Shown: in pieces, positions 11,837 to 62,480 of the stretch | How the letters are laid out: each line of letters begins with the position of its first letter | Numbering within the stretch: position 1 is the first letter of the stretch | Program-made: the position numbers and the translations under genes | Assembly (NCBI RefSeq): GCF_020073815.1 | Contig: NZ_JAIQZJ010000004.1 | Location: forward strand, 124,001 to 188,000 | DNA: 64,000 nt | Reading direction: 5' to 3' | Source: Nocardioides mangrovi | Lineage (GTDB): Bacteria; Actinomycetota; Actinomycetes; Propionibacteriales; Nocardioidaceae | The notes under the pieces: model-generated | Told to the model about the DNA's origin: nothing | Seen by the model: the letters and a program-made list of their open reading frames with translations, nothing else | The model's database searches: none

Positions 11837-12607
11837 CTAGGCCTCGACGTCGATCGAGGTGCGGTCCTCGACCGCCATCACCGCCTCGGCGTACCCGTGG
11901 ACGTGCCGCTGCATCCGGCGTACGGCGGCCTCCGGGTCGCCGGCGCGGATCGCCTCGGTGATCGACTTGTGCGCCTGGGCCGTCGTCTGCCGGACCGCCG
12001 AGTCGACGAAGCCCTGGTTGTCGGTCGAGGTGTAGATCGCCCGCGACAGCGCGAGCATGAAGCCGTTGAGCAGCTCGTTGTGGCTGGCGACCGCCACGGC
12101 GACGTGCCAGTCCACGTTGGCCTGGAGGAACTCCCCGAGCGACCCGTCGCGGGCGATCGAGTCGTTGGCGCGGTCGAGCGCGGCGAGGTCGTCGTCGGTC
12201 CGGTGCAGCGCCGCCAGCCGGGCGCACGAGGGCTCGATCGCCTCGCGCGTCTCGTGGAGCGCGGCGAGCCGGATGTTGCGGCCGCGGATGAGCAGGTCGA
12301 CCGAGCTGGCGATCGACTCCTCGCCGAGACGCTGGATGAAGGCGCCACCGGCGCGGCCGGTCTTGATCCGCACCAGGCCCTGCACCTCGAGGATCCGCAG
12401 CGCCTCCCGCACGGTGGCGCGGCTCATCCCGGTCTGGGTGACGAGCTCCCGCTCGGGCGGCAGCGCCGTGCCCTCGGGGAACTCGCCCCGCAGGATGCGC
12501 TCGCGCAGCTCGTCGGCGAGCACGTCGGACGCCTTGGGGACCGACATCGGTGCCAGCTGGACCGCGACCCGCGTCGTGCCGTTCTCGGGCGATGCCGGTT
12601 CGGCCAT
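11837..12607 (-). CDS. GntR-family regulator, FadR/FCD subfamily
   Basis: 256 aa. The winged HTH covers about 26-92 (ADELRERILRGEFPEGTALP, MSRATVREALRILEVQGLVR). The C-terminal all-helical FCD domain (about 105-250) holds the metal/effector residues, with HVAVAVASHN and HKSITEAIRAGD...RMQRHVH. ATG 12607 has GGGGA upstream; ATG 12619 is less favoured. It is divergent from the ACAD at 12669, with TGGTCATACC between them. FCD regulators bind TGGT-N3-ACCA sites, so this protein or its paralogue at 50826 is the likely reader of the repeated operator. Effectors of the family are acyl-CoAs or carboxylates. Confidence 0.88.
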   Translation of the reverse strand: MAEPASPENGTTRVAVQLAPMSVPKASDVLADELRERILRGEFPEGTALPPERELVTQTGMSRATVREALRILEVQGLVRIKTGRAGGAFIQRLGEESIASSVDLLIRGRNIRLAALHETREAIEPSCARLAALHRTDDDLAALDRANDSIARDGSLGEFLQANVDWHVAVAVASHNELLNGFMLALSRAIYTSTDNQGFVDSAVRQTTAQAHKSITEAIRAGDPEAAVRRMQRHVHGYAEAVMAVEDRTSIDVEA

Positions 12608-12632
12608 CGTTCCCCACATTCTCAGATGTTTT

Positions 12633-12668: not shown

Positions 12669-13712
12669 ATGGAGTGGAGACTCTCCGAGGAGCAGGTGTC
12701 CTACCAGGAGACGCTCCGGGACTGGCTGTCCGCGGTCGCGCCGGTCGAGTCCGTCCGCGGCTGGATCGAGGCCGCGGACCCGGCACCCTTCGTCGAGCGC
12801 CTCGCCGCTGACGGCTGGCTCGGCGTCGGCGTCGACGAGGAGCTCGGCGGCCAGGGCGGCGGTGTCGTCGAGCTCGCGCTCACGGCGGAGGAGCTCGGTC
12901 GTGCCGCGGCGCCGTCCGCGGCCTGGCTGGCCACGGTCCTCGCCGTCCCCGGTCTCGCTGGCTTCCCCGACCGCACCACGGCGTGGCTGGCGCCCGCCGA
13001 GGACGCACCCGACGCGGCGACCGGGGTCCGGGTCGACGGCGACGGGCGGCTGAGCGGCACGGTGCCGCGCGTCCTCGCCGGCGACGAGGCGGCGGCGTAC
13101 GTCGTGGCCGTCGGTGCCCCGGGCGACCGGGCGCTCCGGCTGGTGGAGCGGGCCGCCCCCGGCGTCGAGGTGGCACCGCGCCGGCTGCTCGACGGCACGC
13201 GCACGGTCGCCGACGTCCACCTGGACGCGGCACGGTCCGCGCCGCTCGACCCGGACGCGGCGGCCGCCGTCCGCCGGGCCACCGACCTCGCGGCCGTCCT
13301 CGTCGCCGCCGACGCGCTGGGCGCCATGGAGCGGATGCTCGAGATGGCGGTCGCGTACAGCCTGCAGCGCCGCCAGTTCGGGGTGCCCATCGGTTCCTTC
13401 CAGGCGGTCAAGCACGCCGCGGCCGGCATCGAGGTCGCGGTCGAGGCGTCGCGCTCGGCCCTCTACTTCGCGGCCGCCTCGGTCGAGGCCGGGCTCGAGG
13501 AGTGCTCGCTGCACGCCGCGGCGGTCAAGGCGCAGGTGACCGCGGAGGCGAGCCGGGCCGCCGACACCGCGCTGACCATGCACGGCGCGATCGGCTACAC
13601 CTGGGAGCACGACCTGCACCTCTTCTACAAGCGGGCGCGGCTGGACCGGTCGCTCTTCGGCGAGCCGACCGCGTGGAACGAGCGGATCGCCGACGGGCTG
13701 GCCCTCGTCTGA
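12669..13712 (+). CDS. Short acyl-CoA dehydrogenase-family protein
   Basis: 347 aa, about 40-50 residues shorter than ordinary ACADs. The N-terminal helical part is present. The middle beta-domain is abbreviated and lacks a clear TEPxxGSD substrate loop. The C-terminal helices are typical (QRRQFGVPIGSFQAVKH, MHGAIGYTWEHDLHLFYKRA). The shape matches one chain of the heteromeric alpha2beta2 FadE enzymes of actinobacterial steroid-side-chain catabolism, where one partner carries an incomplete FAD site. A partner may be the ACAD at 13855 or 8680. Start ATG 12669 follows AAAGGACC. Confidence 0.8.
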   Translation: MEWRLSEEQVSYQETLRDWLSAVAPVESVRGWIEAADPAPFVERLAADGWLGVGVDEELGGQGGGVVELALTAEELGRAAAPSAAWLATVLAVPGLAGFPDRTTAWLAPAEDAPDAATGVRVDGDGRLSGTVPRVLAGDEAAAYVVAVGAPGDRALRLVERAAPGVEVAPRRLLDGTRTVADVHLDAARSAPLDPDAAAAVRRATDLAAVLVAADALGAMERMLEMAVAYSLQRRQFGVPIGSFQAVKHAAAGIEVAVEASRSALYFAAASVEAGLEECSLHAAAVKAQVTAEASRAADTALTMHGAIGYTWEHDLHLFYKRARLDRSLFGEPTAWNERIADGLALV

Positions 13713-13854: not shown

Positions 13855-15021
13855 GTGGACTTCGAGCTGACGGAGGACCAGCAGACCATCCGCAAGGCGG
13901 TGGCCGAGCTGGCGGCCAAGTTCGACGACCAGTACTGGATGGAGAAGGACGCGGAGCACGAGTTCCCTCGTGAGTTCTACGACGCCTTCGCCGACGGCGG
14001 CTGGCTCGGCATCACCGCGCCCGAGGAGTACGGCGGGAGCGGCTTCGGCATCACCGAGGCCTCGATCCTGCTCGAGGAGGTCGCCGCGTCCGGCGCCGGC
14101 ATGAACGGCGCGAGCTCGATGCACCTCTCGATCTTCGGGATGCACCCGGTGATCGTGCACGGCTCGGATGCGATGAAGCAGGAGACGCTGCCCCGCATCG
14201 TGACCGGCGACCTGCACGTCTGCTTCGGCGTGACCGAGCCCGGGGCCGGCCTCGACACCACGAAGATCACCACCTTCGCCAAGCGCGACGGCTCCGACTA
14301 CGTGATCAACGGCCGCAAGGTCTGGATCTCCAAGGCGATGGAGTCCGAGAAGATCCTGCTGCTGACCCGCACCAGCAAGTTCGAGGACGTCGACAAGAAG
14401 ACCGACGGCCTCACCCTCTTCCTCACCGATCTCGACCGCGCCCACGTCGACATCCGGCCGATCAAGAAGATGGGCCGCAACGCGGTCACCTCCAACGAGC
14501 TCTTCATCGACGACCTGCGCGTGCCGGAGGAGCACCGGATCGGCGAGGAGGGCCAGGGCTTCAAGTACATCCTCGACGGCCTCAACCCCGAGCGCTGCCT
14601 GGTCGCCGCGGAGGCGCTCGGCATCGGCCGGGCTGCGCTGCGTCGCGCGGTCCGCTACGCCAACGAGCGCGAGGTCTTCGGCCGGCCGATCGGCATGAAC
14701 CAGGGCCTGCAGTTCCCGCTCGCCGACTCCCTCGCGCGCCTCGACGCGGCCGAGATGATCCTGCGCAAGGCCACCTGGCTCTACGACCAGGGCAAGCCGT
14801 GTGCGCGCGAGGCCAACACCGCCAAGTACCTCTGCGCCGACGCGGCCTTCGACACCGCCGACCGCGCGCTCCAGACGCACGGCGGCATGGGCTACTCCGA
14901 GGAGTACCACGTCGCCCGCTACTTCCGGGAGGCGCGGCTGACCCGCATCGCCCCGCTCTCGCAGGAGATGGTGCTCAACTTCCTGGGCTCCCACGTCCTC
15001 GGGCTGCCGAGGAGCTACTGA
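13855..15021 (+). CDS. Acyl-CoA dehydrogenase
   Basis: 388 aa, GTG start with AGGAAGGA upstream. Motifs: CFGVTEPGAGLDTTK, RKVWISKAM, helix G GLNPERCLVAAEALG and QTHGGMGYSEEYHVARYFREARL. The catalytic Glu is probably the one in PER (isovaleryl/long-chain position), because the C-terminal segment RIAPLSQEM lacks the EGT motif. This subgroup is common in actinobacterial and proteobacterial acyl-CoA catabolism of branched or cyclic acids. It is first in a coupled operon: the next gene overlaps by 1 nt. Confidence 0.9.
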   Translation: MDFELTEDQQTIRKAVAELAAKFDDQYWMEKDAEHEFPREFYDAFADGGWLGITAPEEYGGSGFGITEASILLEEVAASGAGMNGASSMHLSIFGMHPVIVHGSDAMKQETLPRIVTGDLHVCFGVTEPGAGLDTTKITTFAKRDGSDYVINGRKVWISKAMESEKILLLTRTSKFEDVDKKTDGLTLFLTDLDRAHVDIRPIKKMGRNAVTSNELFIDDLRVPEEHRIGEEGQGFKYILDGLNPERCLVAAEALGIGRAALRRAVRYANEREVFGRPIGMNQGLQFPLADSLARLDAAEMILRKATWLYDQGKPCAREANTAKYLCADAAFDTADRALQTHGGMGYSEEYHVARYFREARLTRIAPLSQEMVLNFLGSHVLGLPRSY

Positions 15022-15779
15022 TGACCGGACCCTTCTCCCTCGCCGGTCGCTCGGCGCTCGTCACCGGCGCGGGTGCCGGTGTCGGCGCCGCCGTCGCGCA
15101 GGCGTACGCCGCCGCCGGGGCCGCCGTCCTCGTGACCGACGTCGACAAGGACGCGGCCGCCGCCGTCGCCGACCGGATCGTCGCCTCCGGGGGCCGGGCG
15201 GAGTCGTGCGCGCTCGACGTCCGCGACGCCGATCAGGCGACGCAGGCCGCCACGCAGGCCGCCGGCCTCAACGACGGCACCCTGAACATCGTCGTCAACA
15301 ACGCGGGCGTGATCAGCCCGGCGATGTTCCCCAAGATGACACCGGACGCGTTCCAGCTCGTCCTCGGCGTGCACGTCGGCGGCACCTTCACCGTCAGCCA
15401 GGCCGCCCTGCCCGTCCTCCCCGACGACGGCACCGGCCGGATCATCAACGTGACCTCCGCGGCCGGGCTCGTCGGCACGATCGGCCAGGCCAACTACGGC
15501 GCCGCCAAGGCCGGCGTCATCGGCCTCACCAAGTCGCTCGCCAAGGAGCTGGCCCGTCGTTCGATCACCGTCAACGCCGTCGCCCCGCTCGCCGCGACTG
15601 CCATGACCGAGAACATCCGCACCAACGAGAAGCTCGCGGAGATGACGCTCGCGCGGATCCCGCTCGGCCGCTGGGCCGACCCGGACGAGATCGCCGCGAC
15701 GTTCGTCTTCTTCGCCTCCGACGCCGCGTCGTACATCACCGGGCAGGTCCTGCCCGTCGACGGCGGGACGGTGATCTGA
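15021..15779 (+). CDS. SDR family 3-hydroxyacyl-CoA dehydrogenase-like oxidoreductase
   Basis: 252 aa classical SDR: TGAGAGVG (residues 15-22), NNAG (93-96), Ser146, Tyr159 and Lys163 (YGAAK), and C-terminal ITGQVLPVDGG. Asp40 after strand 2 suggests NAD specificity. It lies between an ACAD and a thiolase with 1-nt overlaps on both sides, so it very probably oxidises the 3-hydroxyacyl-CoA intermediate of that pathway. Confidence 0.87.
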   Translation: MTGPFSLAGRSALVTGAGAGVGAAVAQAYAAAGAAVLVTDVDKDAAAAVADRIVASGGRAESCALDVRDADQATQAATQAAGLNDGTLNIVVNNAGVISPAMFPKMTPDAFQLVLGVHVGGTFTVSQAALPVLPDDGTGRIINVTSAAGLVGTIGQANYGAAKAGVIGLTKSLAKELARRSITVNAVAPLAATAMTENIRTNEKLAEMTLARIPLGRWADPDEIAATFVFFASDAASYITGQVLPVDGGTVI

Positions 15780-16948
15780 TGCCGCTGCAGGGCCGCACCG
15801 CGTGGCTGGCCGAGGCGCTGCGCACCCCCATGGGCAAGGCGCACCCCGACCGGGGCTGGTACCGCGACGTCCACCCCAACGTGATGCTCGGTGCCGTCTA
15901 CACCGCGCTGCTCGAGTCCACCGGCGTCGCGCCGGGTGACGTCGAGGACCTCGTCGTCGGCTGCACCGCGCCGTTCGGCGAGCAGTCGCGCAACGTCGCC
16001 CGCAACGCCTGGCTCCAGGCGGGCTACCCCGCCGAGGTGCCGGCGACGGTGCTGGACCGGCGCTGCGGCTCGGCCCAGTCCGCGGTCGAGATGGCGGCGG
16101 CGCTGATCGCTTCAGGCACCCACGACCTGGTGATCGCCGGCGGCGTCGAGCACATGGGCCACATCCCCATGACCGCCGTCGTCGAGATCGAGAAGCTGTA
16201 CGGCGCGGCCTGGCCGGCCGAGCTGCTCGCTGCCTCGGACTTCCCGGCGATGGGCGAGGCAGCCGAGCGGATCGCCGAGCGGTGGGACATCAGCCGTGCC
16301 GAGATGGACGCGTTCGCGGTGCGCTCCCACGAGCTGGCCGCGGCCGCCGTCGAGGCGGGCCGCTTCGAGCGCGAGATGATCCCGCTCGAGCTCGACGGCG
16401 AGCGTCGTACGACCGACCAGGGCATCCGTCCGGGCACCACGCTCGAGGGCCTCGCCGGCCTGAAGACCCCGTTCCGGGAGGACGGCCGGGTCACCGCCGG
16501 CAGCTCCTCGCCGCTGACCGACGGCGCCGCCGGCGTCCTGGTCGCCTCGGACGACGCGGTCACCCGGCACGGCCTGACCCGGCGGGCGAAGGTGCTCGAC
16601 CAGACGACGGTCGGCGTGGACCCCGCGATCATGCTCACCGGTCCGATCCCGGCCACCCAGCGGCTGCTGGAGCGCAACGGGATGACGATGTCCGACATCG
16701 ACCTGGTCGAGTGCAACGAGGCCTTCGCCTCCGTCGTGCTCGCCTGGGAGCGTGAGCTCAAGGCCGACCTCGACCGTGTCAACGTCAACGGCGGCGCCAT
16801 CGCCCTGGGCCACCCGGTCGGGGCGTCCGGCTCGCGGCTCTTCGCCACGCTGCTGGCCGAGATGGAGCGACGCGACGTCGAGGTCGGCCTGGTCACGATG
16901 TGCTGCGGCGGCGGTCTCGGCACGGCCACCCTGGTGCAGCGGGTCTAG
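15779..16948 (+). CDS. Thiolase (acetyl-CoA acyltransferase)
   Basis: 389 aa degradative-type thiolase. Nucleophile Cys96 in DRRCGSAQSA, catalytic His in GHPVGASGSR and second Cys in MCCGGGLGTA near the C-terminus; NEAFAS is also present. It cleaves a 3-oxoacyl-CoA with CoA. ATG 15779 overlaps the SDR stop by 1 nt. The adjacent ACAD, SDR and thiolase form an almost complete beta-oxidation set. Confidence 0.92.
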   Translation: MPLQGRTAWLAEALRTPMGKAHPDRGWYRDVHPNVMLGAVYTALLESTGVAPGDVEDLVVGCTAPFGEQSRNVARNAWLQAGYPAEVPATVLDRRCGSAQSAVEMAAALIASGTHDLVIAGGVEHMGHIPMTAVVEIEKLYGAAWPAELLAASDFPAMGEAAERIAERWDISRAEMDAFAVRSHELAAAAVEAGRFEREMIPLELDGERRTTDQGIRPGTTLEGLAGLKTPFREDGRVTAGSSSPLTDGAAGVLVASDDAVTRHGLTRRAKVLDQTTVGVDPAIMLTGPIPATQRLLERNGMTMSDIDLVECNEAFASVVLAWERELKADLDRVNVNGGAIALGHPVGASGSRLFATLLAEMERRDVEVGLVTMCCGGGLGTATLVQRV

Positions 16949-16957
16949 GGGCCACCG

Positions 16958-18202
16958 ATGATCGACGTCGGCGCCTTCCTGCACCCCGGGGACGGGGTGT
17001 GGTGGGGACAGGGGAGCGCAGAGCCCGAGCCGCTGGTCAACGCCGTCCTCGACGTCGTCGACCGGGTCGGCCCGATCCGCGCGTTCTCCGGGCTCACCTG
17101 GAACGAGCGCCTCTCCGGTGACCTGCCCGAGCAGCTGACCGTCGTCTCGTACGGCGGCCTCGGCCGGCTCCGGGCCCTGAGCCGGCACGGGCGCCTCGAC
17201 GTCGTGCCCTGCCACTACTCCGCGATCCCGCGGATGTTCGCGACGGGGGCGCTGCCCAACGACGTCGGCTTCGTCCAGGTGTCGCCGCCCGACCGCGACG
17301 GCTACGTGACGCTCGGGACCGGCGTCGAGTACGTCGCCGACGCGATCCCGCACACCCGCACCCTGATCGCCGAGATCAACGCGCAGATGCCGCCCACGGT
17401 CGGCGGGCCGCGACTGCCGCTGTCCGCCTTCGCCGCCGTCGTGGAGACCGACCGGCCGCTCCGCGAGGCGCCCGGGCGTCCGGCGGACCACGTCGACGTC
17501 GCGATCGCCGGCCACGTCGCGTCGATCATCGACGACGGCGCCACCATCCAGATCGGGGTCGGGTCGCTCCCGTCGGCGGTCCTCGAGGCTCTCGCCGGCC
17601 ACCGCGACCTCGGCTTCCACAGCGGGATGCTCAGCGACACCGTGCTCACGCTCGTCGAGAAGGGAGTGATCACCGGCGCCAAGAAGGAGATCGATGCCGG
17701 CGTCGTGGTCACGGGTGCCGCGCTGTGCTCAGCCGGCGGCTACGCGCGGCTCGGCGCCCTTCCCGTCGAGTTCCGCGCCGCGTCGTACACGCACGCGCCG
17801 CCGGTCCTCTCCCAGCTGGGCTCGCTCGTCTCGATCAACTCCGCGATCGAGGTCGACCTGCTCGGCCAGGTGGGCGCCGAGCTCGCGCGCGGTGTCCACA
17901 TCGGCGCGACCGGCGGCCAGGTGGACTTCAGCCGGGCCGCGTCGCTGACCGGCACCCGGTCGATCATCGCGCTGCGCTCGACCGTCGGGTCGGGCGAGAC
18001 GTCCGAGTCGACGATCGTCCCCGCGCTGCGCAGCGGCGTCGTCACGACCGCGCGCGTCGACGTCGACGCCGTCGTCACCGAGCACGGGGTCGCCATGCTG
18101 ACCGGCTGCACGGTCGCCGAGAGGGCGCTGCGACTGATCGAGGTCGCCGCGCCGGAGCACCGCGAGGCGCTGCAGCGCAGCCTCGCCGAGCAGGAGATGT
18201 GA
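16958..18202 (+). CDS. Acetyl-CoA hydrolase/4-hydroxybutyrate CoA-transferase-family protein, catalytic Glu replaced
   Basis: 414 aa, two-domain family-I-like CoA-transferase (N-terminal half about 1-170, C-terminal half about 180-410). Characterised transferases have a catalytic Glu in an H-[ST]-E-M segment of the C-terminal domain. Here the corresponding stretch is FHSGMLSD, with Gly223 in place of Glu. The nearby GVGSLPSAVLEAL is conserved. Without the Glu a covalent glutamyl-CoA mechanism is not possible, so the protein may hydrolyse, bind or act on CoA esters differently. It lies 9 nt after the thiolase and overlaps the next start by 1 nt. Confidence 0.82.
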   Translation: MIDVGAFLHPGDGVWWGQGSAEPEPLVNAVLDVVDRVGPIRAFSGLTWNERLSGDLPEQLTVVSYGGLGRLRALSRHGRLDVVPCHYSAIPRMFATGALPNDVGFVQVSPPDRDGYVTLGTGVEYVADAIPHTRTLIAEINAQMPPTVGGPRLPLSAFAAVVETDRPLREAPGRPADHVDVAIAGHVASIIDDGATIQIGVGSLPSAVLEALAGHRDLGFHSGMLSDTVLTLVEKGVITGAKKEIDAGVVVTGAALCSAGGYARLGALPVEFRAASYTHAPPVLSQLGSLVSINSAIEVDLLGQVGAELARGVHIGATGGQVDFSRAASLTGTRSIIALRSTVGSGETSESTIVPALRSGVVTTARVDVDAVVTEHGVAMLTGCTVAERALRLIEVAAPEHREALQRSLAEQEM

Positions 18203-19155
18203 TGTCCCAGACGCAGGCCTTCCCCAACGCCACCCGTGGCGAGACGCGCACCGTGCAGATCCGCGAGGTCGGCCCCCGCGACGGCTTCCAGAACGAGCCG
18301 GAGACGATCGCGACGCCGGACAAGATCCGGCTGATCGACGCCCTCGGCCGCGCCGGGTTCAAGCGGATCGAGGTCGCCAGCTTCGTCCGGCCCGACGTCA
18401 TCCCGCAGCTCTCCGACGGCATCGAGGTGCTGCGCGGCATCGACCTGCCCGACGACGTCGACCGGATGGTGCTGATCCCCAACAGCCGCGGCCTCGACAA
18501 CGCCCTCGCCGTCCGGGACCTCTTCGAGGAGGCCACGCTCTTCGTCAGCGCGAGCCAGACGCACAACACGAAGAACATCAACCGGTCGGTCGAGGAGACG
18601 ATGGCCGACGTGGCCGTCATGGGCAAGCGCATCGTCGCCGAGGACCTCACGCTCTGCGCCGTCATCGCGACGTCCTTCGGCTGCCCCTACGAGGGACCCG
18701 TGCCCATGGACCGGGTCCTCGACCTGGCCGAGCAGTTCGCCGCCGCGGGCGCCACCGAGATCGGCTTCGGCGACACCACCGGCATGTGCAACCCGGCGTA
18801 CTCCCGCGCCTTCTTCGAGGCCGCCATCGAGCGGCTCCCCGGCATCGAGGTCACCGCCCACTTCCACAACACCCGGGGGCAGGGCCTCGCCAACGCGTAC
18901 GCCGCGCTCGAGGCCGGCTGCCGCAGCTTCGAGTCCAGCTTCGGCGAGCTCGGCGGCTGCCCGGTCCCGAAGGGGTCCACGGGCAACATCGCCACCGAGG
19001 ACCTCGTCTCGATGTTCCACGAGATGGGCGTCGACACCGGCCTGGACCTCGCGGCCGTGATCGAGGCGGCCCGGGAGGCACAGTCCACCCTGGGCCGGAA
19101 GCTGACCAGCCACTCGATCGTCGCCGGGCCGGTCACCTGGTACCCGGCGTCCTGA
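18202..19155 (+). CDS. Hydroxymethylglutaryl-CoA lyase-like enzyme
   Basis: 317 aa TIM-barrel DRE-metallolyase. [12 protein letters not shown] near residue 25 holds the Arg-Asp pair that binds substrate and metal, HFHNTRG carries the metal-binding histidines, and [11 protein letters not shown] holds the catalytic Cys. HMG-CoA lyase splits a tertiary 3-hydroxy-3-methylacyl-CoA into acetyl-CoA and a keto product. In a non-leucine context such enzymes can cleave other tertiary hydroxyacyl-CoAs, so a branched or alicyclic substrate is possible. It overlaps the CoA-transferase stop by 1 nt and is followed after 38 nt by the BadH-like gene. Confidence 0.87.
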
Positions 19156-19193
19156 ACCACTCACCCGATCCCACCAACACAGGAGAGACACCC

Positions 19194-19955
19194 ATGAGCA
19201 ACCGAGTCGCACTGGTCACCGGAGGCGCCCAGGGCATCGGCAAGGGCATCGCCACCACGCTCGGTGCCGAGGGCTTCCGGGTGGTCATCGCCGACCTCAA
19301 CCTCGAGGTCGCCGAGCAGACCGCCAAGGAGATCAGCGCCGCGGGCGGCGAGGCGATCGCGGTCCAGGTCGACGTGACCTCCACCGAGTCGGTCCGTGCG
19401 GCCGTCGCGACCGTCGAGCAGGAGCTCGGCCCGGTCGAGGTGGTCGTCAACAACGCCGGCTTCGACGACTTCATGCCCTTCGTCAAGACCACCGAGGACT
19501 TCTGGGAGCGCATCCTCGACGTCAACTTCAAGGGTCACCTGCGGGTCATCCAGGCGACCGTGCCCGGCATGATCGAGCGCGGCTTCGGGCGGGTCATCAA
19601 CATCGGCTCCGACGCCGGCCGCGTCGGCTCCTCCCTCGAGGCCGTCTACTCCGGCGCCAAGGGCGGCATCATCGCCTTCGGCAAGACCCTGGCCCGCGAG
19701 GTCGCCACCAAGGGCGTCACGGTCAACACCGTCTGCCCCGGCCCGACGGACACCCCGGCGCTGCGCAAGTTCGCCGACGGCCAGGGCGACGACGCCGAGA
19801 AGGTGATCGGCGGCATGGCCCGCGCCGTCCCGATGAAGCGCCTCGGCACCCCCGAGGACATCGGCCCCGCCGTGGCGTTCTTCGCCTCCGACGGCGCCGG
19901 CTTCGTCACCGGCCAGACGCTGTCGGTCAGCGGCGGCCTGACGATGGCCGGATGA
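19194..19955 (+). CDS. BadH-like 2-hydroxycyclohexane-1-carboxyl-CoA dehydrogenase (SDR)
   Basis: 253 aa SDR with GGAQGIG (10-16), NNAG (86-89), Ser139, Tyr152 and Lys156. The blocks [28 protein letters not shown] and [14 protein letters not shown] are as I recall them in BadH of Rhodopseudomonas palustris, which oxidises 2-hydroxycyclohexanecarboxyl-CoA to the 2-keto thioester. ATG 19194 has AGGAGAG upstream. The next gene (MenB/BadI-like) overlaps as ATGA, mirroring badH-badI. The function is inferred from motifs and gene order; no alignment was run. Confidence 0.75.
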
Positions 19956-20779
19956 GCCCCGAGACCTGGACCCCGCAGGGCGAGTGGACGGACATCCGCT
20001 ACGAGACGACCCCGGACGGGATCGCCAGGATCACCATCGACCGCCCCGAGGTGCACAACGCCTTCCGGCCGCAGACCCTGGTCGAGGTCGACCAGGCGCT
20101 GCGGCTCGCCCGGGAGGACGAGCGGGTCGGCGTCATCGTCCTCACGGGCGCCGGCGACCGCGCCTTCTGCTCCGGCGGTGACCAGCGGGTGCGTGGCGAG
20201 AGCGGCTACCAGCTCGACGAGAGCGCGACCGGCCGCTTCCACGTGACCGACCTCCACGTCGCGATGCGGCGCTGCCCCAAGCCGATCGTCGCGATGGTGG
20301 CGGGCTGGGCGATCGGCGGCGGCCACGTGCTGCACCTCGTCTGCGACCTGACCATCGCGGCCGACAACGCCCGCTTCGGCCAGGTCGGCCCGCGGGTCGG
20401 CTCCTTCGACGGCGGCTACGGGTCGAGCATCCTCGCCGACCTCGTCGGGCCGAAGAAGGCCAAGGAGATCTGGTTCCTCTGCCGGCAGTACGACGCCGCG
20501 ACCGCGCTCGAGATGGGTCTGGTCAACACGGTCGTCCCCCTGGCCGACCTCGAGGCCGAGACGATGCGCTGGTGCCGCGAGATGCTCGCGCTCTCGCCGT
20601 ACGCGCTGCGGCTCTCGAAGCTCAGCTTCCACGCCCACGAGGACGGCTACGCCGGCATCCAGCAGCTGGCCCACGACGCCAACCTCCTCTTCTACGGCAC
20701 CGCCGAAGCCGCCGAGGGCCGCGAGGCCTTCAAGGCCAAGCGCGCCCCCGACTTCACCCCGTTCCCGCGGCGTCCCTGA
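19952..20779 (+). CDS. MenB/BadI-like crotonase (ring-cleaving or ring-forming)
   Basis: 275 aa crotonase. Hallmarks of the 1,4-dihydroxynaphthoyl-CoA synthase/2-ketocyclohexanecarboxyl-CoA hydrolase branch: [53 protein letters not shown] and [11 protein letters not shown]. The sequence as a whole resembles MenB strongly. However, QVGP has Gly where Mycobacterium MenB carries Asp185, and there are no menaquinone genes nearby. The 4-nt overlap with the BadH-like SDR favours BadI-type hydrolysis of a 2-ketocycloalkanecarboxyl-CoA to a dicarboxyl-CoA. The alternative is true MenB. Confidence 0.7.
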
Positions 20780-20802
20780 CCCGCCGACCCCAGGAGAGTC
20801 CT

Positions 20803-21576
20803 GTGTCCGACACCGTCGTCACCTGGCGCACCCACGCACCCGGCATCTGGGTGGTCACCATGGACCGCCCGCCGGCCAACGCTCTCGGCCTGCCGATCCT
20901 CGACGGGCTGCACGCGCTGTGCGACGCCGCCGAGGCGGCCGGCGACGTGAAGGTCGTCGTGATCGAGTCGGCTCTGGACGGCTTCTTCGCCGCCGGGGCC
21001 GACATCAAGCACATGTCGACCATCGACGCGTCGTCCTTCCTCGCCTACGGCGACCGGATGCGCTCGGCGAACGACCGGCTCGAGGCCGCCTCCTTCCTCT
21101 CCATCGCCGCCGTCGACGGGCTCGCCCTGGGCGGCGGGCTCGAGCTCGCGATGGCCTGCACGATGCGGGTGGCGGGCGCCGCCGCGAGGCTCGGCCTCCC
21201 CGAGGTCAAGCTGGGGCTGATCCCCGGCGCCGGCGGCACCCAGCGGCTCCCGCGGCTGGTGGGCCACGGCCGGGCCCTCGACATCATGCTGACCGCGCGC
21301 CAGGTGCCCGCCGACGAGGCGCACGCGATCGGCCTCGTCGACCGGCTGACCGACGGCCGGGCCGTCGACGCGGCGCTCGACCTGGCCGCCGAGCTGGCCG
21401 GGTCGTCGCTGCCGGCCCAGCTCGCCGTCGTCCGCAGCGTCACCGCCGCCTCCGAGCTGCCGCTCGAGCAGGGCATGAAGCTCGAGGCCGAGCAGGAGCA
21501 GGGACTCTTCGAGCACGGCGAGGCCGCGGAGGGCATCGCCGCCTTCGTCGCCAAGCGCCGGCCCGACTTCGCCTGA
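20803..21576 (+). CDS. Enoyl-CoA hydratase
   Basis: 257 aa crotonase, GTG start with CAGGAGAG upstream. Both catalytic glutamates are present: Glu114 in GGGLELA and Glu134 in LPEVKLGLIPGAGGTQRL. The oxyanion-hole glycines are also in place. It should hydrate 2-enoyl-CoA, possibly a cyclohex-1-ene-1-carboxyl-CoA (BadK role) given its BadH-like and BadI-like neighbours. The ring substrate is inference. It is followed after 3 nt by a transporter gene. Confidence 0.87.
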   Translation: MSDTVVTWRTHAPGIWVVTMDRPPANALGLPILDGLHALCDAAEAAGDVKVVVIESALDGFFAAGADIKHMSTIDASSFLAYGDRMRSANDRLEAASFLSIAAVDGLALGGGLELAMACTMRVAGAAARLGLPEVKLGLIPGAGGTQRLPRLVGHGRALDIMLTARQVPADEAHAIGLVDRLTDGRAVDAALDLAAELAGSSLPAQLAVVRSVTAASELPLEQGMKLEAEQEQGLFEHGEAAEGIAAFVAKRRPDFA

Positions 21577-21579
21577 CCC

Positions 21580-22632
21580 GTGCCGCCCCTGGCCCCCGAG
21601 ACCAGCAGGACGACGCTGCTGGCCGCGCTGGTGACCGTCTGGGTGCTGTGGGGCTCGGTCTACCTCGCCATCCGCATCGTGGTCGACGAGGTCGACCCCT
21701 TCCAGGCGATGGCCCAGCGGTTCGCCGCGGCGGCGCTGATCCTCGCCGCGATCGTCGTCGTACGGCGTGGTGCACGAGGCCTCCGCGTGTCCCGCCGGGA
21801 GGTCGGCGCGCTGGTGGCCACGGGCGTGCTGCTGGTCGGGCTCGGCAACGGGTTGCAGGCGCTCGCCCAGGTGCGCGGCCTGCCCTCGGGCGTGGCCGCG
21901 CTCGTCGTCGCGACCGTCCCGGCGTGGGCGGTGCTGCTCCGGGTCGCCACGGGGGAGCGACCGTCGTCGATGACCCTCGCCGGCGTCGCCGTCGGCTTCC
22001 TCGGCCTGGCGGTGCTCGTCCTGCTCGGCCACGGCGTCGGCGAGGCCCTGCCGATCGGTGCCGTCCTGCTCTGCCTGGGCAGCAGCATCAGCTGGACCCT
22101 CGGCTCCTTTCTGGCCGGGACGCTCGCCCTCCCCGACGACCTCTTCGTGGTGGCGACGTACCAGCAGCTGGTCGCCGCCTGCTGCTCCTCGCTGCTGGCG
22201 TTCGGTCACGGCGAGCGGTTCAGCGTCGACTACTCGGTGGGCGGCTGGGCGGCGCTCGCCTACCTCGTGGTGGCCTGCTCGATCGTCTCGTTCGTCGCCT
22301 TCGCGTGGCTGCTCACGCACGTGCCGCTGTCGCTCACCGCCACCCACGCCTACGTCAACCCGGTGGTCGCCGTGCTGCTCGGCTGGGCGATCCTCGCCGA
22401 GCCCCTCGGGGCCCCGGTCCTGGTCGGCGGCGGCATCGTCGTGAGCGCCGTGGTGCTCATCGTGACGGCCGAGCGTCGGCCCTCCGACCCCCTCTCGGAA
22501 GGGGCTCCTGTGACGGCGATCACTCCTGTGGGGGAGGCGAATGCCCCTTCAGAGGGGCGAAACTATCGAATTGTCAGACCACAATCTCTCCCACGAGCCG
22601 GTACGGACGAGCCGTGCCGCTCTCACGAGTAG
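21580..22632 (+). CDS. EamA/DMT-family transporter
   Basis: 350 aa inner-membrane protein with about ten hydrophobic segments forming two EamA repeats (for example TVWVLWGSVYLAIR and YVNPVVAVLLGWAILAEPLG). It probably exports or exchanges a small metabolite; the substrate is unknown. The start is GTG 21580. The last ~45 residues (after VLIVTAERRP) are hydrophilic and coincide with a hairpin and the operator of the next operon. That tail is therefore probably unconserved read-through sequence. Confidence 0.83.
   Translation: MPPLAPETSRTTLLAALVTVWVLWGSVYLAIRIVVDEVDPFQAMAQRFAAAALILAAIVVVRRGARGLRVSRREVGALVATGVLLVGLGNGLQALAQVRGLPSGVAALVVATVPAWAVLLRVATGERPSSMTLAGVAVGFLGLAVLVLLGHGVGEALPIGAVLLCLGSSISWTLGSFLAGTLALPDDLFVVATYQQLVAACCSSLLAFGHGERFSVDYSVGGWAALAYLVVACSIVSFVAFAWLLTHVPLSLTATHAYVNPVVAVLLGWAILAEPLGAPVLVGGGIVVSAVVLIVTAERRPSDPLSEGAPVTAITPVGEANAPSEGRNYRIVRPQSLPRAGTDEPCRSHE
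22543..22558 (+). terminator. Hairpin inside the 3' end of the EamA gene
   Basis: GCCCCT-TCAG-AGGGGC gives a 6-bp stem within the last 90 bases of the transporter frame, followed by GAAACTATCG rather than a T-run. May attenuate read-through into the Liv operon. Confidence 0.35.
22571..22581. promoter_or_regulatory. FadR-type operator, site E (TTGTCAGACCA)
   Basis: One mismatch to TGGTCNGACCA, extended as TTGTCAGACCACAA. It lies 61 nt before the Liv binding-protein start and overlaps the 3' end of the transporter gene. Confidence 0.5.
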
Positions 22633-22641
22633 GGGAGAGCT

Positions 22642-23877
22642 GTGAAGAGCACAGTTTCGACTAAGGCGGCGACGACCATGGCGGTCGTCCTGGTCCTGGG
22701 CACCACCCTCGCCGCCTGCGGGTCGGCGAGCAGCAACGACTCGGGGAGCGATGGCGGTGACGACAGCACGATCAAGATCGCGCTGATCCCGCCGACGAGC
22801 GGGGCGCTGGCCCAGTTCGGCACCGATGCGGTGAAGGGCTGGCAGGTCGCCGCCGACATGGTCAACGCCAAGGGCGGCATCGACGGCCACAAGGTCGAGC
22901 TGATCACCAAGGGCACCGACGCCGACCCGGCCACCACGATCCGCGTGGCCAAGGAGGCGGTGACCCAGGACGGCGCCCAGTTCATCGGCGCCGTGATGAC
23001 CTCGCCCGAGCACGCGGCGCTCAACGCCCAGCTCGCCGGCATGGGGGCGCTCGACTTCAACGCGCTCGGCAAGGACGACGCGCTGGTGGGCGAGCAGTGC
23101 TCGCCGAACGCCTTCCACATCGTCCAGACGAGCAGCATGGACCTCAACGGCCTGGCGTCCTCCATCGACGAGATGCCCGGTGACAAGTGGGCGATCATGG
23201 CCGTCGACTACGCCACCGGGCACAGCGCCGCCGACAAGTTCACCGAGGAGGCGGAGAAGGCCGGCAAGACGATCGTCTCGACGCAGTTCGCGCCGCTCAA
23301 CACGACCGACTTCGGCTCCTACATCACGAAGATCAAGGACAGCGGCGCCGACGCGGTCTTCGCGGTGGAGTACGGCGCCGACGGCGTCGCCTTCGTCAAG
23401 CAGGCCGAGCAGTTCAACCTCTCGTCCCAGGTCAAGACGGTCCTCGGCTTCAACATGGTCTCCGAGCCGCTCTTCCCGACGCTCGGCGACAGCATCGTCG
23501 GCTACTACAACAACGTCGGGTACGACGTGAACGCCGACAACGACCTCAACCAGGAGTTCGTGGACGCCTACACGAAGGCCAACGGCAGCGCGCCGTACTA
23601 CGTCCCGGCCGACAACTTCCTCGCCGCCGAGACGCTCTTCGCCGGCATCGAGAAGGCGGGCAGCACCGACCCCGACGACGTCGCGGCCGCGCTGAACGAC
23701 CTCACCTTCGACTCGATCGACGGGTCGGTGACGCTCCGCGGCGCCGACCACCAGCTGCTCCGGCCGTCGTACCTCGGTCAGGTCGAGGGCAGCGGCAAGG
23801 ACCTCAGCTTCAAGATCCTGAGCTCGGCGGAGGCGTCCACCACGACGCCCGAGCCCAGCGCCGACTGCAAGATGTGA
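22642..23877 (+). CDS. livK: Liv-type ABC transporter substrate-binding lipoprotein
   Basis: 411 aa. Lipoprotein signal peptide with lipobox LAAC (Cys26), a Ser/Gly/Asp linker, then a two-lobed type-I periplasmic-binding fold (IKIALIPPTSGALAQFGTD, NAKGGIDGHKVELI). The GTG start has GGGGAGAG upstream. It is anchored outside the membrane and delivers ligand to LivHM. In the family, ligands include branched-chain amino acids but also aromatic acids and amides; the catabolic setting favours a carboxylic acid. It ends with a conserved-looking Cys (ADCKM), as does the paralogue at 51613. Confidence 0.9.
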   Translation: MKSTVSTKAATTMAVVLVLGTTLAACGSASSNDSGSDGGDDSTIKIALIPPTSGALAQFGTDAVKGWQVAADMVNAKGGIDGHKVELITKGTDADPATTIRVAKEAVTQDGAQFIGAVMTSPEHAALNAQLAGMGALDFNALGKDDALVGEQCSPNAFHIVQTSSMDLNGLASSIDEMPGDKWAIMAVDYATGHSAADKFTEEAEKAGKTIVSTQFAPLNTTDFGSYITKIKDSGADAVFAVEYGADGVAFVKQAEQFNLSSQVKTVLGFNMVSEPLFPTLGDSIVGYYNNVGYDVNADNDLNQEFVDAYTKANGSAPYYVPADNFLAAETLFAGIEKAGSTDPDDVAAALNDLTFDSIDGSVTLRGADHQLLRPSYLGQVEGSGKDLSFKILSSAEASTTTPEPSADCKM

Positions 23878-23887
23878 GGACGGGTTC

Positions 23888-24742
23888 GTGAACGCCGCGC
23901 AGCTGCTCAACGGCATCGCCCTGGGCTCCTTGTTGATGGTCCTGAGCTCGGGCCTGGCGATGATCTACGGCCTGCGCGGCGTCACGAACTTCGCGCACGG
24001 CGCGCTCTACATGTCCGGCGCGTACCTCGCCTACACGCTCTCGGACCGGCTCAGCTTCTGGGCCGCGCTGGTCCTGGTCCCGGTGATCCTCGCGGTCATC
24101 GGGGTGGTGCTGGAGATGGTCTTCTTCCGGCCGCTCCAGCACCGGTCCCACATCGAGCTCGGGCTCATCACCTTCGGCCTGGCGCTCATCGCCGAGCGCC
24201 TGGTCGTGCTGATCTGGGGGGAGAAGACCCTCTCGGTCGACCCGCCCCCCGGGCTGACGGGCACCACATCCGTCCTCGGGGTCGACTACCCGACGTACCG
24301 GCTCGGGATCATCGTCGTGGCGCTGGCGCTGGCGGCGATCCTCGTCATGTGGCTGCGCTACACCCGCACCGGGCTCTACGTCCGGGCGGCCAGCCAGGAC
24401 ATCGAGACCGCCGGGATCATGGGCATCGACGTCAACCGGGTGAGCCTGATCGTCGTCAGCTTCGGCGCCGCCCTGGCCGGCCTGGCCGGGACGCTCGCGG
24501 CGCCCTACGTCTCGCTCGACCCCAACATGGGCAACAGCTTCCTCATCATCGTCCTCATCGTCGTGGTGATCGGCGGCATCGGCAGCATCGGTGGCGCGAT
24601 GGTCGCCGGCATGGGCCTCGGGATCATCCAGACGGTCAGCACCGTCTGGTCGCCGTCGGTCGCCGTGGTCGTCCCGTACGTCGCCCTCGTGGTCGTCCTT
24701 CTCTGGCGACCGCAGGGCCTGGCCGGAAAGAGAGTCTCGTGA
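23888..24742 (+). CDS. livH: Liv-type ABC transporter permease LivH
   Basis: 284 aa integral membrane protein with multiple transmembrane helices. It carries LivH hallmarks: GLAMIYGLRGVTNFAHGA near the N-terminus and VVVIGGIGSIGGAMVAG near the C-terminus. With LivM it forms the membrane channel. It lies 10 nt after the binding protein; the stop overlaps livM as GTGA. Confidence 0.93.
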   Translation: MNAAQLLNGIALGSLLMVLSSGLAMIYGLRGVTNFAHGALYMSGAYLAYTLSDRLSFWAALVLVPVILAVIGVVLEMVFFRPLQHRSHIELGLITFGLALIAERLVVLIWGEKTLSVDPPPGLTGTTSVLGVDYPTYRLGIIVVALALAAILVMWLRYTRTGLYVRAASQDIETAGIMGIDVNRVSLIVVSFGAALAGLAGTLAAPYVSLDPNMGNSFLIIVLIVVVIGGIGSIGGAMVAGMGLGIIQTVSTVWSPSVAVVVPYVALVVVLLWRPQGLAGKRVS

Positions 24743-25779
24743 GCGTGACCACCCTCCCTGACGCACCGCCGGCGGACGTCGTCGCACCGAGGTCCCGGCG
24801 CCGGCCGGGGCGCACCCTCCTCGGCGCCGGGCTCATCGTGGCGGTGCTGCTCGCCGGCCTCTCGGTGCCCTACATCATCAAGGACCCCTACACGATGGGG
24901 CTCGTCCTCGAGATGGCGCTCCTGGGCCTGCCCGCGCTGGGCATCGGCTTCCTGGCCCGCCACCTCGGCCTGATCAGCCTCGGCCACTCGGCCTTCTTCG
25001 GCGCCGCCGCCTACTCGGTCGGCATCGCGGTCAACCGGTGGGACCTCTCGCTCACGGCGGCCGTCGGCTTCGCCGTCGTCGTCGGCACCCTGGTCTCGCT
25101 CGTGATGGGCGTGCTCGTGGTGCGGGCGTCCGGCATGGGCTTCCTCATGCTGACGCTGGCGCTGTCGATGGCGCTGTGGCAGCTGGCCCTGCAGACCTCC
25201 TTCCGGCCGTGGACCGGCGCGCACGACGGCCTGCTGATCAACGCCGGCGCGGACGCGAGCTTCCTCGGCATGGGGCCGAGGGAGATCCAGGACCCCGGCC
25301 TCTTCTGGGCCGGCGTGTGGGTCTCGCTCATGGGTGCGGCCCTCGTGCTCTGGCTGGTCGGTCGCTCCCGCTTCGGCGTGCTGCTTGAGGGCATCCGCGA
25401 GAACGAGGAGCGGATGCGCTTCTCCGGCTACGGCACCTTCCTGCCGCGGCTCGCGGCCTTCACGCTCACCGGCGTCGTGGCCTCGCTGGGTGGCGCGCTC
25501 TTCGCGGTCAACGCCGGCTACATCTCGCCCGACATCCTCGGCTTCACCCGCGCCGGTGACTCGCTCATCGCCGTCCTCATCGGCGGGCCGGCGAGCCTCG
25601 CGGGGCCGCTGATCGGCACCGGACTCTTCGTGTGGGCCCAGGCGCACCTCAACTTCGGCGGCAACCTGCACCTCTTCACCGGGATCGCGCTGATCCTCGT
25701 CCTCGTCTTCCTGCCCGGCGGCCTGACCGGCGCCGTGCAGCGCATCGCCCGAGCCCTCCGGAAGGGAGGATCGCGATGA
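24739..25779 (+). CDS. livM: Liv-type ABC transporter permease LivM
   Basis: 346 aa. A cytoplasmic N-terminal extension of about 35 residues precedes the first membrane helix. Family motifs are present: GHSAFFGAAAYSVGI, RENEERMRFSGYGTF and LIGGPASLAGPLIGT. GTG 24739 overlaps the livH stop; the end overlaps livG as ATGA. Confidence 0.92.
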   Translation: MSVTTLPDAPPADVVAPRSRRRPGRTLLGAGLIVAVLLAGLSVPYIIKDPYTMGLVLEMALLGLPALGIGFLARHLGLISLGHSAFFGAAAYSVGIAVNRWDLSLTAAVGFAVVVGTLVSLVMGVLVVRASGMGFLMLTLALSMALWQLALQTSFRPWTGAHDGLLINAGADASFLGMGPREIQDPGLFWAGVWVSLMGAALVLWLVGRSRFGVLLEGIRENEERMRFSGYGTFLPRLAAFTLTGVVASLGGALFAVNAGYISPDILGFTRAGDSLIAVLIGGPASLAGPLIGTGLFVWAQAHLNFGGNLHLFTGIALILVLVFLPGGLTGAVQRIARALRKGGSR

Positions 25780-26473
25780 GCATCTTCTCCGCGTCGGGCC
25801 TGACGGTCCGCTACGGCGCGCTCGCCGCGCTGACCGACGTCGCCATCGAGCTCGAGCCGGGCGTGGTCCACGGCGTGATCGGCCCGAACGGAGCCGGCAA
25901 GTCGACCTTCATCGACGCCCTGTCCGGCCGCCGACGGCCGTCCTCCGGCGTCGTCCGGCTCGACGGCGACGACATCACCCGCCGCTCGGTGCGGTGGCGT
26001 CGCGCCCACGGCGTCTCCCGGTCCTTCCAGCGGACCAGCGTCTTCGGGTCGATGACCGTCCGGACGCAGCTGGAGATGATCGCCCGCCGCAACGACGAGC
26101 CCGACCTGGACGAGATCGTCTCGACGCTCGGCCTCGACGAGGTCCAGGACCAGGTCTGCTCGGAGATCGCCTACGGCACCCAGCGGTCCGTCGACCTCGC
26201 GATCGCCCTGATCGGGCGGCCGCGGGTGGTGCTCCTCGACGAGCCGTGCGCCGGCCTGGTGGCCGACGAGTCGGTCCGGATGCTCGAGCACGTCCGCACC
26301 CTCTGCACGGAGCGCGACGTCGCGGCCCTCCTGGTCGAGCACGACGTCGAGGGCGTGTTCCGCACCTGCGACGTCATCACCGTCCTCGACCTCGGCTCGG
26401 TGCTCGCCACGGGCGCCCCGGCCGAGGTCCGCGCCAACCCGGACGTCGTCCGGGCCTACCTGGGGAGCGCCGC

Positions 26474-26477
<4 letters not shown>
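25776..26477 (+). CDS. livG: Liv-type ABC transporter ATPase LivG
   Basis: 233 aa ABC ATPase. Walker A GPNGAGKS near residue 40, Q-loop SFQRTSVF, signature IAYGTQRSVDLAIAL, Walker B VVLLDEPCAGL and switch His in VEHDVE. Energises uptake through LivHM. Coupled to livM and livF by 4-nt overlaps. Confidence 0.93.
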
Positions 26478-27166
<689 letters not shown>

Positions 27167-32977: not shown

Positions 32978-34111
32978 CTAGAAGATCGACTTCGCGATGA
33001 TCTCGCGCTGGATCTCGTTGGTGCCGCCGAAGATCGGCGGCGCCAGGGCGCGGCGCACCTGGAACTCCATGCCGTACTCGCGGGCGTAGCCCGCACCGCC
33101 CATCAGCTGCATGCCCTCGAGCGCCGCCTTGCGGGCCACCTCGGTCGCACGCATCTTGGCCATCGAGGACTCACGGGCGAGGCCGTCCTCGTGGCCCTCG
33201 TCGATCGCCTGGGCGACGTCGTACACGAAGGCGCGGGTGGTCTCGATGTCGGTGGCGAGGTCGGCGACGCGGTGCCGCAGCGCCTGGAAGTCCGAGATCG
33301 GCTGGCCGAAGGCGTCGCGCTGGCGCATGTAGGCGACGGCGTCCTCGAGCGCGCGGCGGGCGTTGCCGATGCTGAACGCGGCGATGATCATCCGTTCGAC
33401 CGAGAGCCCGCGCATCAGGTGCTTCCAGCCCTGGCCGGGCTCGCCGACGACGGCGGAGGCGGACACCCGGGCGCCGGTGAAGAAGACGTCGTTGCAGGTG
33501 CGCGCCTCCATGGTCCGCACCTCGCGCATCTCGATGCCCGGGGTGGCGCACGGGACCATGAGCAGGGTGAGCCCGGTGTGCTTGGGGCCCGAGGTGTCCT
33601 CACGGACCAGGGTGAGCATGTGCTCGGCGACGTGGGCCGCCGAGATCCAGGTCTTCTGGCCGTCGAGGACGTACTCGTCGCCGTCGCGCACCCCGCGGGT
33701 CCGGACGGCGCCGAGGTCCGAGCCGGTGCCCGGCTCGGACAGGGCGATCGCCTCGATCCGGCCGGCGGCCAGGTTGGAGACGATCGTCTTCTTCTGCTCC
33801 TCGGTGCCCCACTTGAGATAGGTCTGCGCGGCGGTCAGACCGGTGGAGTAGCCGAGCACGGGAGCCAGGCCGCGGTTGGTCTCCTCGAGGAAGACGCACT
33901 CGTCGACGAAGCCGGCGCCGCCCCCGCCGTACTCCGACGGGAGGGAGACGCCGAGCCACCCGAGCGCGGCCATCTTCTCGAGGATGACCGGGCTGTTGGC
34001 GATCGCCTCGTGGTCGGTCAGCTCCTCGAGGCCGGCGAAGCCGCCGACCTCGCGGGCGCAGAAGTCCTCGATGGCGGCCGCGAACTCGAGCCGCTCGGCG
34101 TCCAGGCGCAT
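32978..34111 (-). CDS. Acyl-CoA dehydrogenase
   Basis: 377 aa ACAD. EAIALSEPGTGSDLGAV is the substrate/FAD loop, and IFGGTNEIQREIIAKSIF ends the protein with Gly in the medium-chain Glu position. GLSVERMIIAA in helix G supplies the probable catalytic Glu (isovaleryl/long-chain type). It is translated 3 nt after the BadI-like gene on the minus strand, so it may create the ring double bond of the substrate that the BadI-like enzyme later opens. Confidence 0.9.
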   Translation of the reverse strand: MRLDAERLEFAAAIEDFCAREVGGFAGLEELTDHEAIANSPVILEKMAALGWLGVSLPSEYGGGGAGFVDECVFLEETNRGLAPVLGYSTGLTAAQTYLKWGTEEQKKTIVSNLAAGRIEAIALSEPGTGSDLGAVRTRGVRDGDEYVLDGQKTWISAAHVAEHMLTLVREDTSGPKHTGLTLLMVPCATPGIEMREVRTMEARTCNDVFFTGARVSASAVVGEPGQGWKHLMRGLSVERMIIAAFSIGNARRALEDAVAYMRQRDAFGQPISDFQALRHRVADLATDIETTRAFVYDVAQAIDEGHEDGLARESSMAKMRATEVARKAALEGMQLMGGAGYAREYGMEFQVRRALAPPIFGGTNEIQREIIAKSIF

Positions 34112-51602: not shown

Positions 51603-51612
51603 GCGAGCGAGG

Positions 51613-52839: not shown

Positions 52840-52883
52840 CTGTTCTCCCATCAGGACGGCCGCAGGGCCAGGTGTGGTGCGGA

Positions 52884-56218: not shown

Positions 56219-56314
56219 GGACACTCCTGGGTTGTCGGGAGATGGGCAGGGTGCAGCAACCGAGGGACCCGGGTGGGTCCGCGGCGGATCGGGGCGGGAC
56301 GGCGGGGGAGCCGG

Positions 56315-62459: not shown

Positions 62460-62480
62460 CATCTCACTCCTGGAGGAAGC

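Follow-up and report, generated by a model that had tools for sequence, protein, structure and literature searches.

The window analysed here is a stretch of 64,000 nucleotides (nt) from Nocardioides mangrovi (contig NZ_JAIQZJ010000004.1, positions 124,001 to 188,000), and three consecutive genes on its plus strand raise the question of which enzyme opens the ring of an alicyclic acid. A short-chain dehydrogenase/reductase (SDR; 19194–19955, 253 amino acids), a crotonase (19952–20779, 275 amino acids) and an enoyl-CoA hydratase (20803–21576, 257 amino acids) had been described as one coupled run in a preliminary description of this DNA, and all three open reading frames (ORFs) were confirmed, with a coding-like base composition. 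The hydratase start is likelier at 20803 than upstream of it, where the mechanical ORF 20572–21576 begins. The middle gene, called 19952 here after its first position, had been likened to BadI, the 2-ketocyclohexanecarboxyl-CoA hydrolase. In the reading that we favour, which taken as a whole is rather probable, the run belongs to the core operon of a mobile Actinomycetes island for ring-bearing acids, the ring is opened by the product of another crotonase gene, 34115 (34115–34909, minus strand), and 19952 is an optional second MenB.

The product of 19952 scores above the cut-offs of two MenB models (NF005637, 435 bits against 380; TIGR01929, 385 against 343) and below those of the long-form MenB model PRK08321 (300 against 378) and the BadI model TIGR03210 (275 against 467.6). 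Its ten best matches among solved structures are all MenB or naphthoate synthases. It is 63% identical to the MenB of Escherichia coli, 59% to that of Staphylococcus aureus and 72% to that of Rubrobacter marinus, and it has the E. coli residue at 33 of 44 selected active-site and neighbouring columns. The active-site residues are Q144, G146, S151, D153, W174 and Y248, while the long MenB of the same genome has Asp at the Gly column; Gly rather than Asp at the bicarbonate position, together with Gln, Ser and Asp, is what we take to be the class I MenB active site. Val in place of Thr at E. coli position 155 was considered as a catabolic mark and discarded, as men-operon MenBs (e.g., that of locus L095) share it.

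Phylogeny gives the same assignment. In a tree of 45 rows, chosen from about 116 collected and with wrong-strand rows corrected, a BadI-type clade (support 100/100) comprises five annotated BadI proteins, the 34115 product with its orthologues, the crotonase of a chcpca-like cluster and a relative from Azoarcus. The 19952 protein lies in the MenB part of the tree with the men-operon MenBs of Rubrobacter and Solirubrobacter relatives (24 rows, 100/100), a group that stands next to E. coli MenB (80/66). The placement is the same in a larger tree built earlier, which included five long-MenB rows read from the wrong strand and left out two short rows. The approximately unbiased (AU) test, applied to groups named after the first tree had been seen, rejected a BadI-type clade that includes 19952 (p 0.0077) or all 11 island MenBs (p 6e-58). 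At the diagnostic columns, 19952 keeps 0 of 35 BadI residues, the columns having been defined with 19952 included among the 39 MenB rows, and 29 of 34 men-operon-MenB residues. Judged by its sequence, 19952 is thus a class I MenB.

For the first gene of the run, SDR 19194, the best NCBIfam model is BadH (TIGR03206), at 305 bits against a cut-off of 431.2 (next model 232); the cut-off is likewise missed by two SDRs that adjoin annotated badI genes (347 and 382 bits) and passed by an annotated BadH (480). The protein shares 50% identity with an annotated BadH of Paraburkholderia, 47–50% with three SDRs adjoining badI annotations and 49% with its counterpart in a chcpca-like Rhodococcus opacus cluster. 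Five further SDRs of the window were compared and reach 24–36%, the one at 15021 having 36%. The motifs GGAQGIG, NNAG and YSGAK are present. As the preliminary description had it, the protein is BadH-like (2-hydroxycyclohexanecarboxyl-CoA dehydrogenase-like), yet outside the curated BadH family. The hydratase has GGGLE and PE where both catalytic Glu are expected, again as described earlier, and these motifs are presumably the catalytic sites. Its match to PRK07658 (216 bits) is below the cut-off of 313, no BadK model was among the matches listed (25 of 73), and it is an ordinary enoyl-CoA hydratase.

The 4-nt overlap of the SDR with 19952, which had been said to recall badH-badI, exists but is not diagnostic: the same overlap occurs in 14 of the 40 same-strand neighbour pairs of the window. 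Of 24 other loci holding both genes, 22 have a gap of 1–135 nt, and in the remaining two the genes are 1.0 and 2.1 kb apart; start codons in this survey were estimated by script, and several loci are one genome under two identifiers. The overlap was therefore rejected as a badH-badI signature.

The gene 34115 is the better candidate for ring opening. Its product scores 317 bits against the BadI model, whose cut-off was given above, and lies within the BadI-type clade in the sister group of the five annotated BadI proteins. The SDR was searched in overlapping samples of the order (196 genomes), the class (394) and the family (341), and 21 distinct genomes held an orthologue (at least 74% identity); one further genome (G650, SDR identity 59%) was dropped, and the set was counted alone since several genomes recur under different handles. 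An orthologue of 34115 (at least 77% identity) is present in all 21, counted anywhere in the genome: 17 have it at most 60 kb from the SDR, three on a different contig and one 849 kb away. The 19952 type is found in 13 of the 21, where it adjoins the SDR in 10, lies a kilobase off in one and at 14–17 kb in two. The hydratase directly follows the SDR in eight genomes, one of which has the MenB type 17 kb off, and two genomes have neither MenB type nor hydratase in the 1.5 kb beside the SDR. On the complete plasmid of Mycobacterium paragordonae, the same operon has its hydratase (64% identity) right after the SDR with no MenB-type gene there, and the 34115 orthologue stands elsewhere on the plasmid. 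In a tree of the SDR and HMG-CoA (3-hydroxy-3-methylglutaryl-CoA) lyase, MenB adjacency changes at least four times on starred branches. Presence in 21 of 21 genomes against 13 of 21 makes 34115 the stable partner of the BadH-like SDR and the MenB type optional, and 34115 is most likely the predicted ring-opening hydrolase of the island, rather than 19952.

What the preliminary description had set against a BadI-like reading was a grouping of 19952 with MenB combined with the absence of another menB from the genome. The grouping is found, but another menB is present: a separate long class II MenB on another contig scores 553 bits against a cut-off of 378, so 19952 is the second MenB-type gene of the genome. 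The menD gene is also on a contig other than that of the window, and 19952 is not linked to men genes. Among 66 related MenB loci that were read (the gene caller recovered 66 of 80 match proteins), menC, menD and menE are neighbours at 15; there the names MenC, MenE and MenF rest on position and reading, while MenD is model-confirmed. A search of 20 genomes for the long MenB found it in all ten that had been chosen for the island operon (66–89% identity). In Thermocrispum, Nocardioides alkalitolerans, Nocardioides zeae and Mumia, the 19952 type is the only MenB at E ≤ 1e-40 and menD scores over its cut-off; these MenBs are 81–85% identical to 19952 and are probably working MenBs. Likewise, the island genome G533 (93% complete) has menD and the island copy as the sole MenB found.

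Five actinomycetes (G003, G005, G008, G010 and G012) have menD and a class I MenB, while their matches to the long class II MenB do not exceed 47% identity, which suggests replacement of one MenB class by another. The possibility that solo relatives of 19952 are remnants of the island was rejected, as 30 of 33 solo loci have no match to another window gene at 48% identity and half coverage; three loci (L025, L028 and L066) do match.

Several observations weigh against the favoured reading, and gene order is the strongest. On plasmids of Cupriavidus basilensis and Paraburkholderia fungorum, an annotated badI stands between an SDR and a hydratase as 19952 does in the run, bearing out the likeness to a badH-badI-hydratase order that had been noted earlier; the MenB gene occupies a badI-like slot, which keeps open that it does the work of badI. 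On the Cupriavidus plasmid, a DMT transporter comes next after the hydratase. The plasmid hydratases are 37–42% identical to that of the window, and BLAST gave no match between the transporters that follow the run in the window and in Cupriavidus, so that the clusters resemble each other in their kinds of genes more than through orthology. Moreover, the MenB type keeps one slot, between SDR and hydratase on the same strand and mostly with short gaps, in Nocardioides, Citricoccus, Brevibacterium, Intrasporangium, Rhodococcus and Nocardia, and across distant lineages its degree of conservation equals that of the neighbouring SDR. A second MenB is not obviously needed in the 13 of 21 genomes that have a long one. 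Since the MenB and BadI reactions are near reverses of each other, the sequence leaves room for hydrolysis by 19952. Both the SDR and 34115 are under the BadH and BadI cut-offs, and the consensus of the 34115 group is intermediate, with eight of 35 BadI-diagnostic and eight of 34 men-operon-MenB-diagnostic residues, which would weaken its substrate assignment. In the draft genome of Kribbia dieselivorans, a class I MenB is present and neither menD nor a long MenB was found; either the draft is incomplete at this point or its MenB has a different role. Lastly, none of six menD-less genomes and nine of 11 menD-bearing genomes tested hold the MenB type (Fisher test, p 0.002), the six being of one family and three of them 81–88% complete, and three genomes of the set having been equated with G001, G004 and G007 by identical rows and coordinates. 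This co-absence is a hint only, as it comes down to two informative independent pairs and is not significant.

Two other accounts stand next to the favoured one. The first, possible though unlikely, is that 19952 is a MenB-lineage enzyme recruited to open rings by BadI-like hydrolysis (a reverse Dieckmann reaction); its substrate might be a substituted or fused ring not accepted by 34115. The place of badI that it takes in the two plasmid clusters, the slot kept in distant Actinomycetes, the occurrence of a separate, long MenB in 13 of the 21 genomes and the Kribbia draft all agree with recruitment. The comparison of 16 island MenBs with 23 men-operon and reference MenBs argues the other way, since no fixed difference was found in either direction (a residue at 90% in one group and at most 10% in the other). 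The gene has also been lost or moved repeatedly, whereas the SDR, the hydratase and 34115 mostly stay, and there are menD-bearing genomes whose sole detected MenB is a close relative of 19952.

The second account, to which we give a similarly small chance, is a stricter form of the favoured reading, and its odds overlap with it: the MenB gene would be a horizontally moving housekeeping passenger, functionally unlinked to the island. A single clade of island copies is rejected (AU test, p 0.00015; at least four changes are forced in the larger tree), the island is on plasmids in Rhodococcus ruber and, without MenB, in M. paragordonae, and a nearly identical gene is the only MenB found elsewhere, as expected of a passenger. 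The constancy of intergenic slot and strand across the six genera named above speaks against it. A more doubtful proposal is that MenB was recruited whole, with an unchanged active site, and runs its condensation backwards to open one ring of a fused bicyclic naphthoyl-like beta-keto-acyl-CoA, 34115 opening the second; if true, this would explain two ring-type crotonases in one island. That 19952 is BadI itself is very improbable: it has in common with the annotated BadI proteins of Cupriavidus and P. fungorum the gene order, the superfamily, a QVGP motif and 53–54% identity, but membership of that family is rejected by the bit score, both trees with the AU test and the lack of diagnostic residues, and a BadI-type paralogue, 34115, lies in the same window.

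According to the favoured reading, the run is the end of an operon that starts at about 12669 (core operon about 12.7–21.6 kb, plus strand). Divergent from it is a FadR/GntR-type regulator (11837–12619, minus strand), present in seven of seven islands compared and assigned to its family from the annotated R. ruber orthologue. The operon opens with an acyl-CoA dehydrogenase-like gene (12669–13712; six of seven islands), an acyl-CoA dehydrogenase (13855–15021) and a FabG-like SDR (15021–15779), all three named by model search. They are followed by a thiolase (15779–16948; TIGR01930, 420 bits against 241), a member of the acetyl-CoA hydrolase/CoA-transferase family (16958–18202; TIGR03948, 180 bits against a cut-off of 675, with the name taken from the annotated R. 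ruber orthologue) and an HMG-CoA lyase-like enzyme (18199–19155; NF004283, 322 bits against 246, aligned to the solved HMG-CoA lyase 1ydo). The SDR, the MenB-type gene and the hydratase complete it. Downstream, an EamA-family transporter (21580–22632, plus strand; PRK11272, 185 bits, below cut-off, with an orthologue annotated EamA) precedes a branched-chain-amino-acid-type ABC importer set (22678–27166, plus strand), which was named by reading the ORFs only and is found in four of seven islands. On the minus strand, an acyl-CoA dehydrogenase (32978–34111) adjoins 34115 in all seven.

The island is a conserved unit of about 55 kb, and numerous genes of the window, from about 7 to 63 kb, reappear in seven genomes, namely three Nocardioides, Citricoccus, R. 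opacus, Intrasporangium and an R. ruber megaplasmid. The genes from 13855 to 20779 are in seven of seven islands at 62–90% identity; these islands were chosen for holding the operon, so that full presence of the operon genes is by selection. The pair 34115 and its dehydrogenase is in all seven as well, and five islands have 61296/62481. A large part of the island is carried by the 470-kb linear plasmid NZ_CP145320.1 of R. ruber, and the operon without MenB lies on the 306-kb plasmid NZ_CP025547.1 of M. paragordonae. Both plasmids also encode a P450 and alcohol and aldehyde dehydrogenases, which suggests that a hydrocarbon or terpenoid may first be oxidised to the acid. The minus-strand stretch 50826–56224 of the window encodes another 11837-like regulator together with a further ABC importer set of the branched-chain-amino-acid type, which was named by reading, and recurs in two of the seven islands, both Nocardioides. 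Among the open-licence PMC papers listed by literature searches, no description of the island was recognised. The genomic island MmGI-1 of Mycobacterium massiliense was considered as a match and rejected, as its gene content, in the part of the report available, differs (PMC4263727).

The content of the island, with HMG-CoA lyase, CoA-transferase, thiolase and acyl-CoA dehydrogenases, is consistent with degradation of a ring-bearing acid. The BadH-like SDR would oxidise a 2-hydroxycycloalkane-carboxyl-CoA to the 2-oxo thioester, as expected from its family, the 34115 product would open the ring hydrolytically, and the hydratase would act in ring or beta-oxidation steps. By its sequence, 19952 would be a DHNA-CoA (1,4-dihydroxy-2-naphthoyl-CoA) synthase, converting OSB-CoA (o-succinylbenzoyl-CoA) to DHNA-CoA and water beside the long class II MenB. 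The presence of HMG-CoA lyase, CoA-transferase and thiolase in the operon suggests a 3-substituted glutaryl-CoA as the ring-opening product. A 4-substituted 2-oxocyclohexanecarboxyl-CoA would yield this compound after ring opening and one round of beta-oxidation, and the operon dehydrogenase, hydratase, HMG-CoA lyase, CoA-transferase and thiolase could then break it down via 3-hydroxy-3-alkylglutaryl-CoA. Excerpts of a study of 4-methylbenzoyl-CoA breakdown in Magnetospirillum report 3-methylglutaryl-CoA and 3-methylglutaconyl-CoA (PMC9636800). The alicyclic acid degradation proposed in the preliminary description stays plausible for a conserved island with a BadI-type crotonase, but its likelier hydrolase is 34115.

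At the right end of the window, 61296–63824 (plus strand) encodes two large subunits of the benzoyl-CoA reductase (BCR)/2-hydroxyacyl-CoA dehydratase family, with orthologues in five of seven islands. A single activase follows from about 63821 past the window end; its best solved match is the 2-hydroxyisocaproyl-CoA dehydratase activator, and no second ATPase subunit was seen by eye among the genes following it. Class I benzoyl-CoA reductase is made of four subunits, including two different ATPase subunits, and the window set falls short of that composition. Enzymes of this family are usually oxygen-sensitive. Two large subunits with one activase would fit a 2-hydroxyacyl-CoA dehydratase about as well as a benzoyl-CoA reductase, and the earlier idea that a BCR-like enzyme feeds the pathway is doubtful.

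These results bear on annotation, since context may lead an Actinomycetes crotonase that adjoins a badH-like gene to be named either badI or naphthoate synthase. The present data separate the two readings and point to 34115 as the better ring-hydrolase candidate, in an island that is widespread and partly plasmid-borne. They also raise the question of why a second MenB, indistinguishable from biosynthetic ones, persists in a badI-like slot of a catabolic operon.

Among known systems, the BadH-BadI-BadK and AliA-AliB pathway of Rhodopseudomonas and Aromatoleum CIB is similar in gene content. According to the parts of the CIB study available, a badHI deletion mutant fails to grow on cyclohexane carboxylate, whether oxygen is present or not (PMC9795900). 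The window likewise has a BadH-like SDR, a hydratase, acyl-CoA dehydrogenases, ligases and a BadI-type gene; here, however, the BadI-type gene is 13 kb off on the opposite strand, it and the SDR are below the equivalog cut-offs, and HMG-CoA lyase, CoA-transferase and thiolase are additional. In the chcpca cluster of Rhodococcus aetherivorans BCP1, excerpts of the source state that badH and flanking genes are induced by naphthenic acids, including cyclohexanecarboxylate, and that the putative badI beside badH is annotated as naphthoate synthase (PMC5906575). The crotonase of the chcpca-like R. opacus cluster, which was matched by gene content only, groups with 34115 and not with 19952. The steroid ring C/D enzymes EchA20 and IpdAB offer a chemical precedent only. 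The Castellaniella MrcDEF proteins are proposed, in the portion of the source available, to open a 4-isopropenyl ring (PMC4109377). A crotonase of Azoarcus KH32C, perhaps an MrcE relative, groups with 34115 at 59% identity; the SDR adjoining it is 33% identical to 19194 and another SDR of that cluster 48%. The hosts of MrcDEF are anaerobic-capable Betaproteobacteria. Finally, the class I MenBs of E. coli, Staphylococcus and the men operons of Rubrobacter and Solirubrobacter relatives resemble 19952 in identity, model cut-offs and active-site columns, whereas 19952, unlike them, is placed in a catabolic operon away from men genes, in a genome with a second, long MenB.

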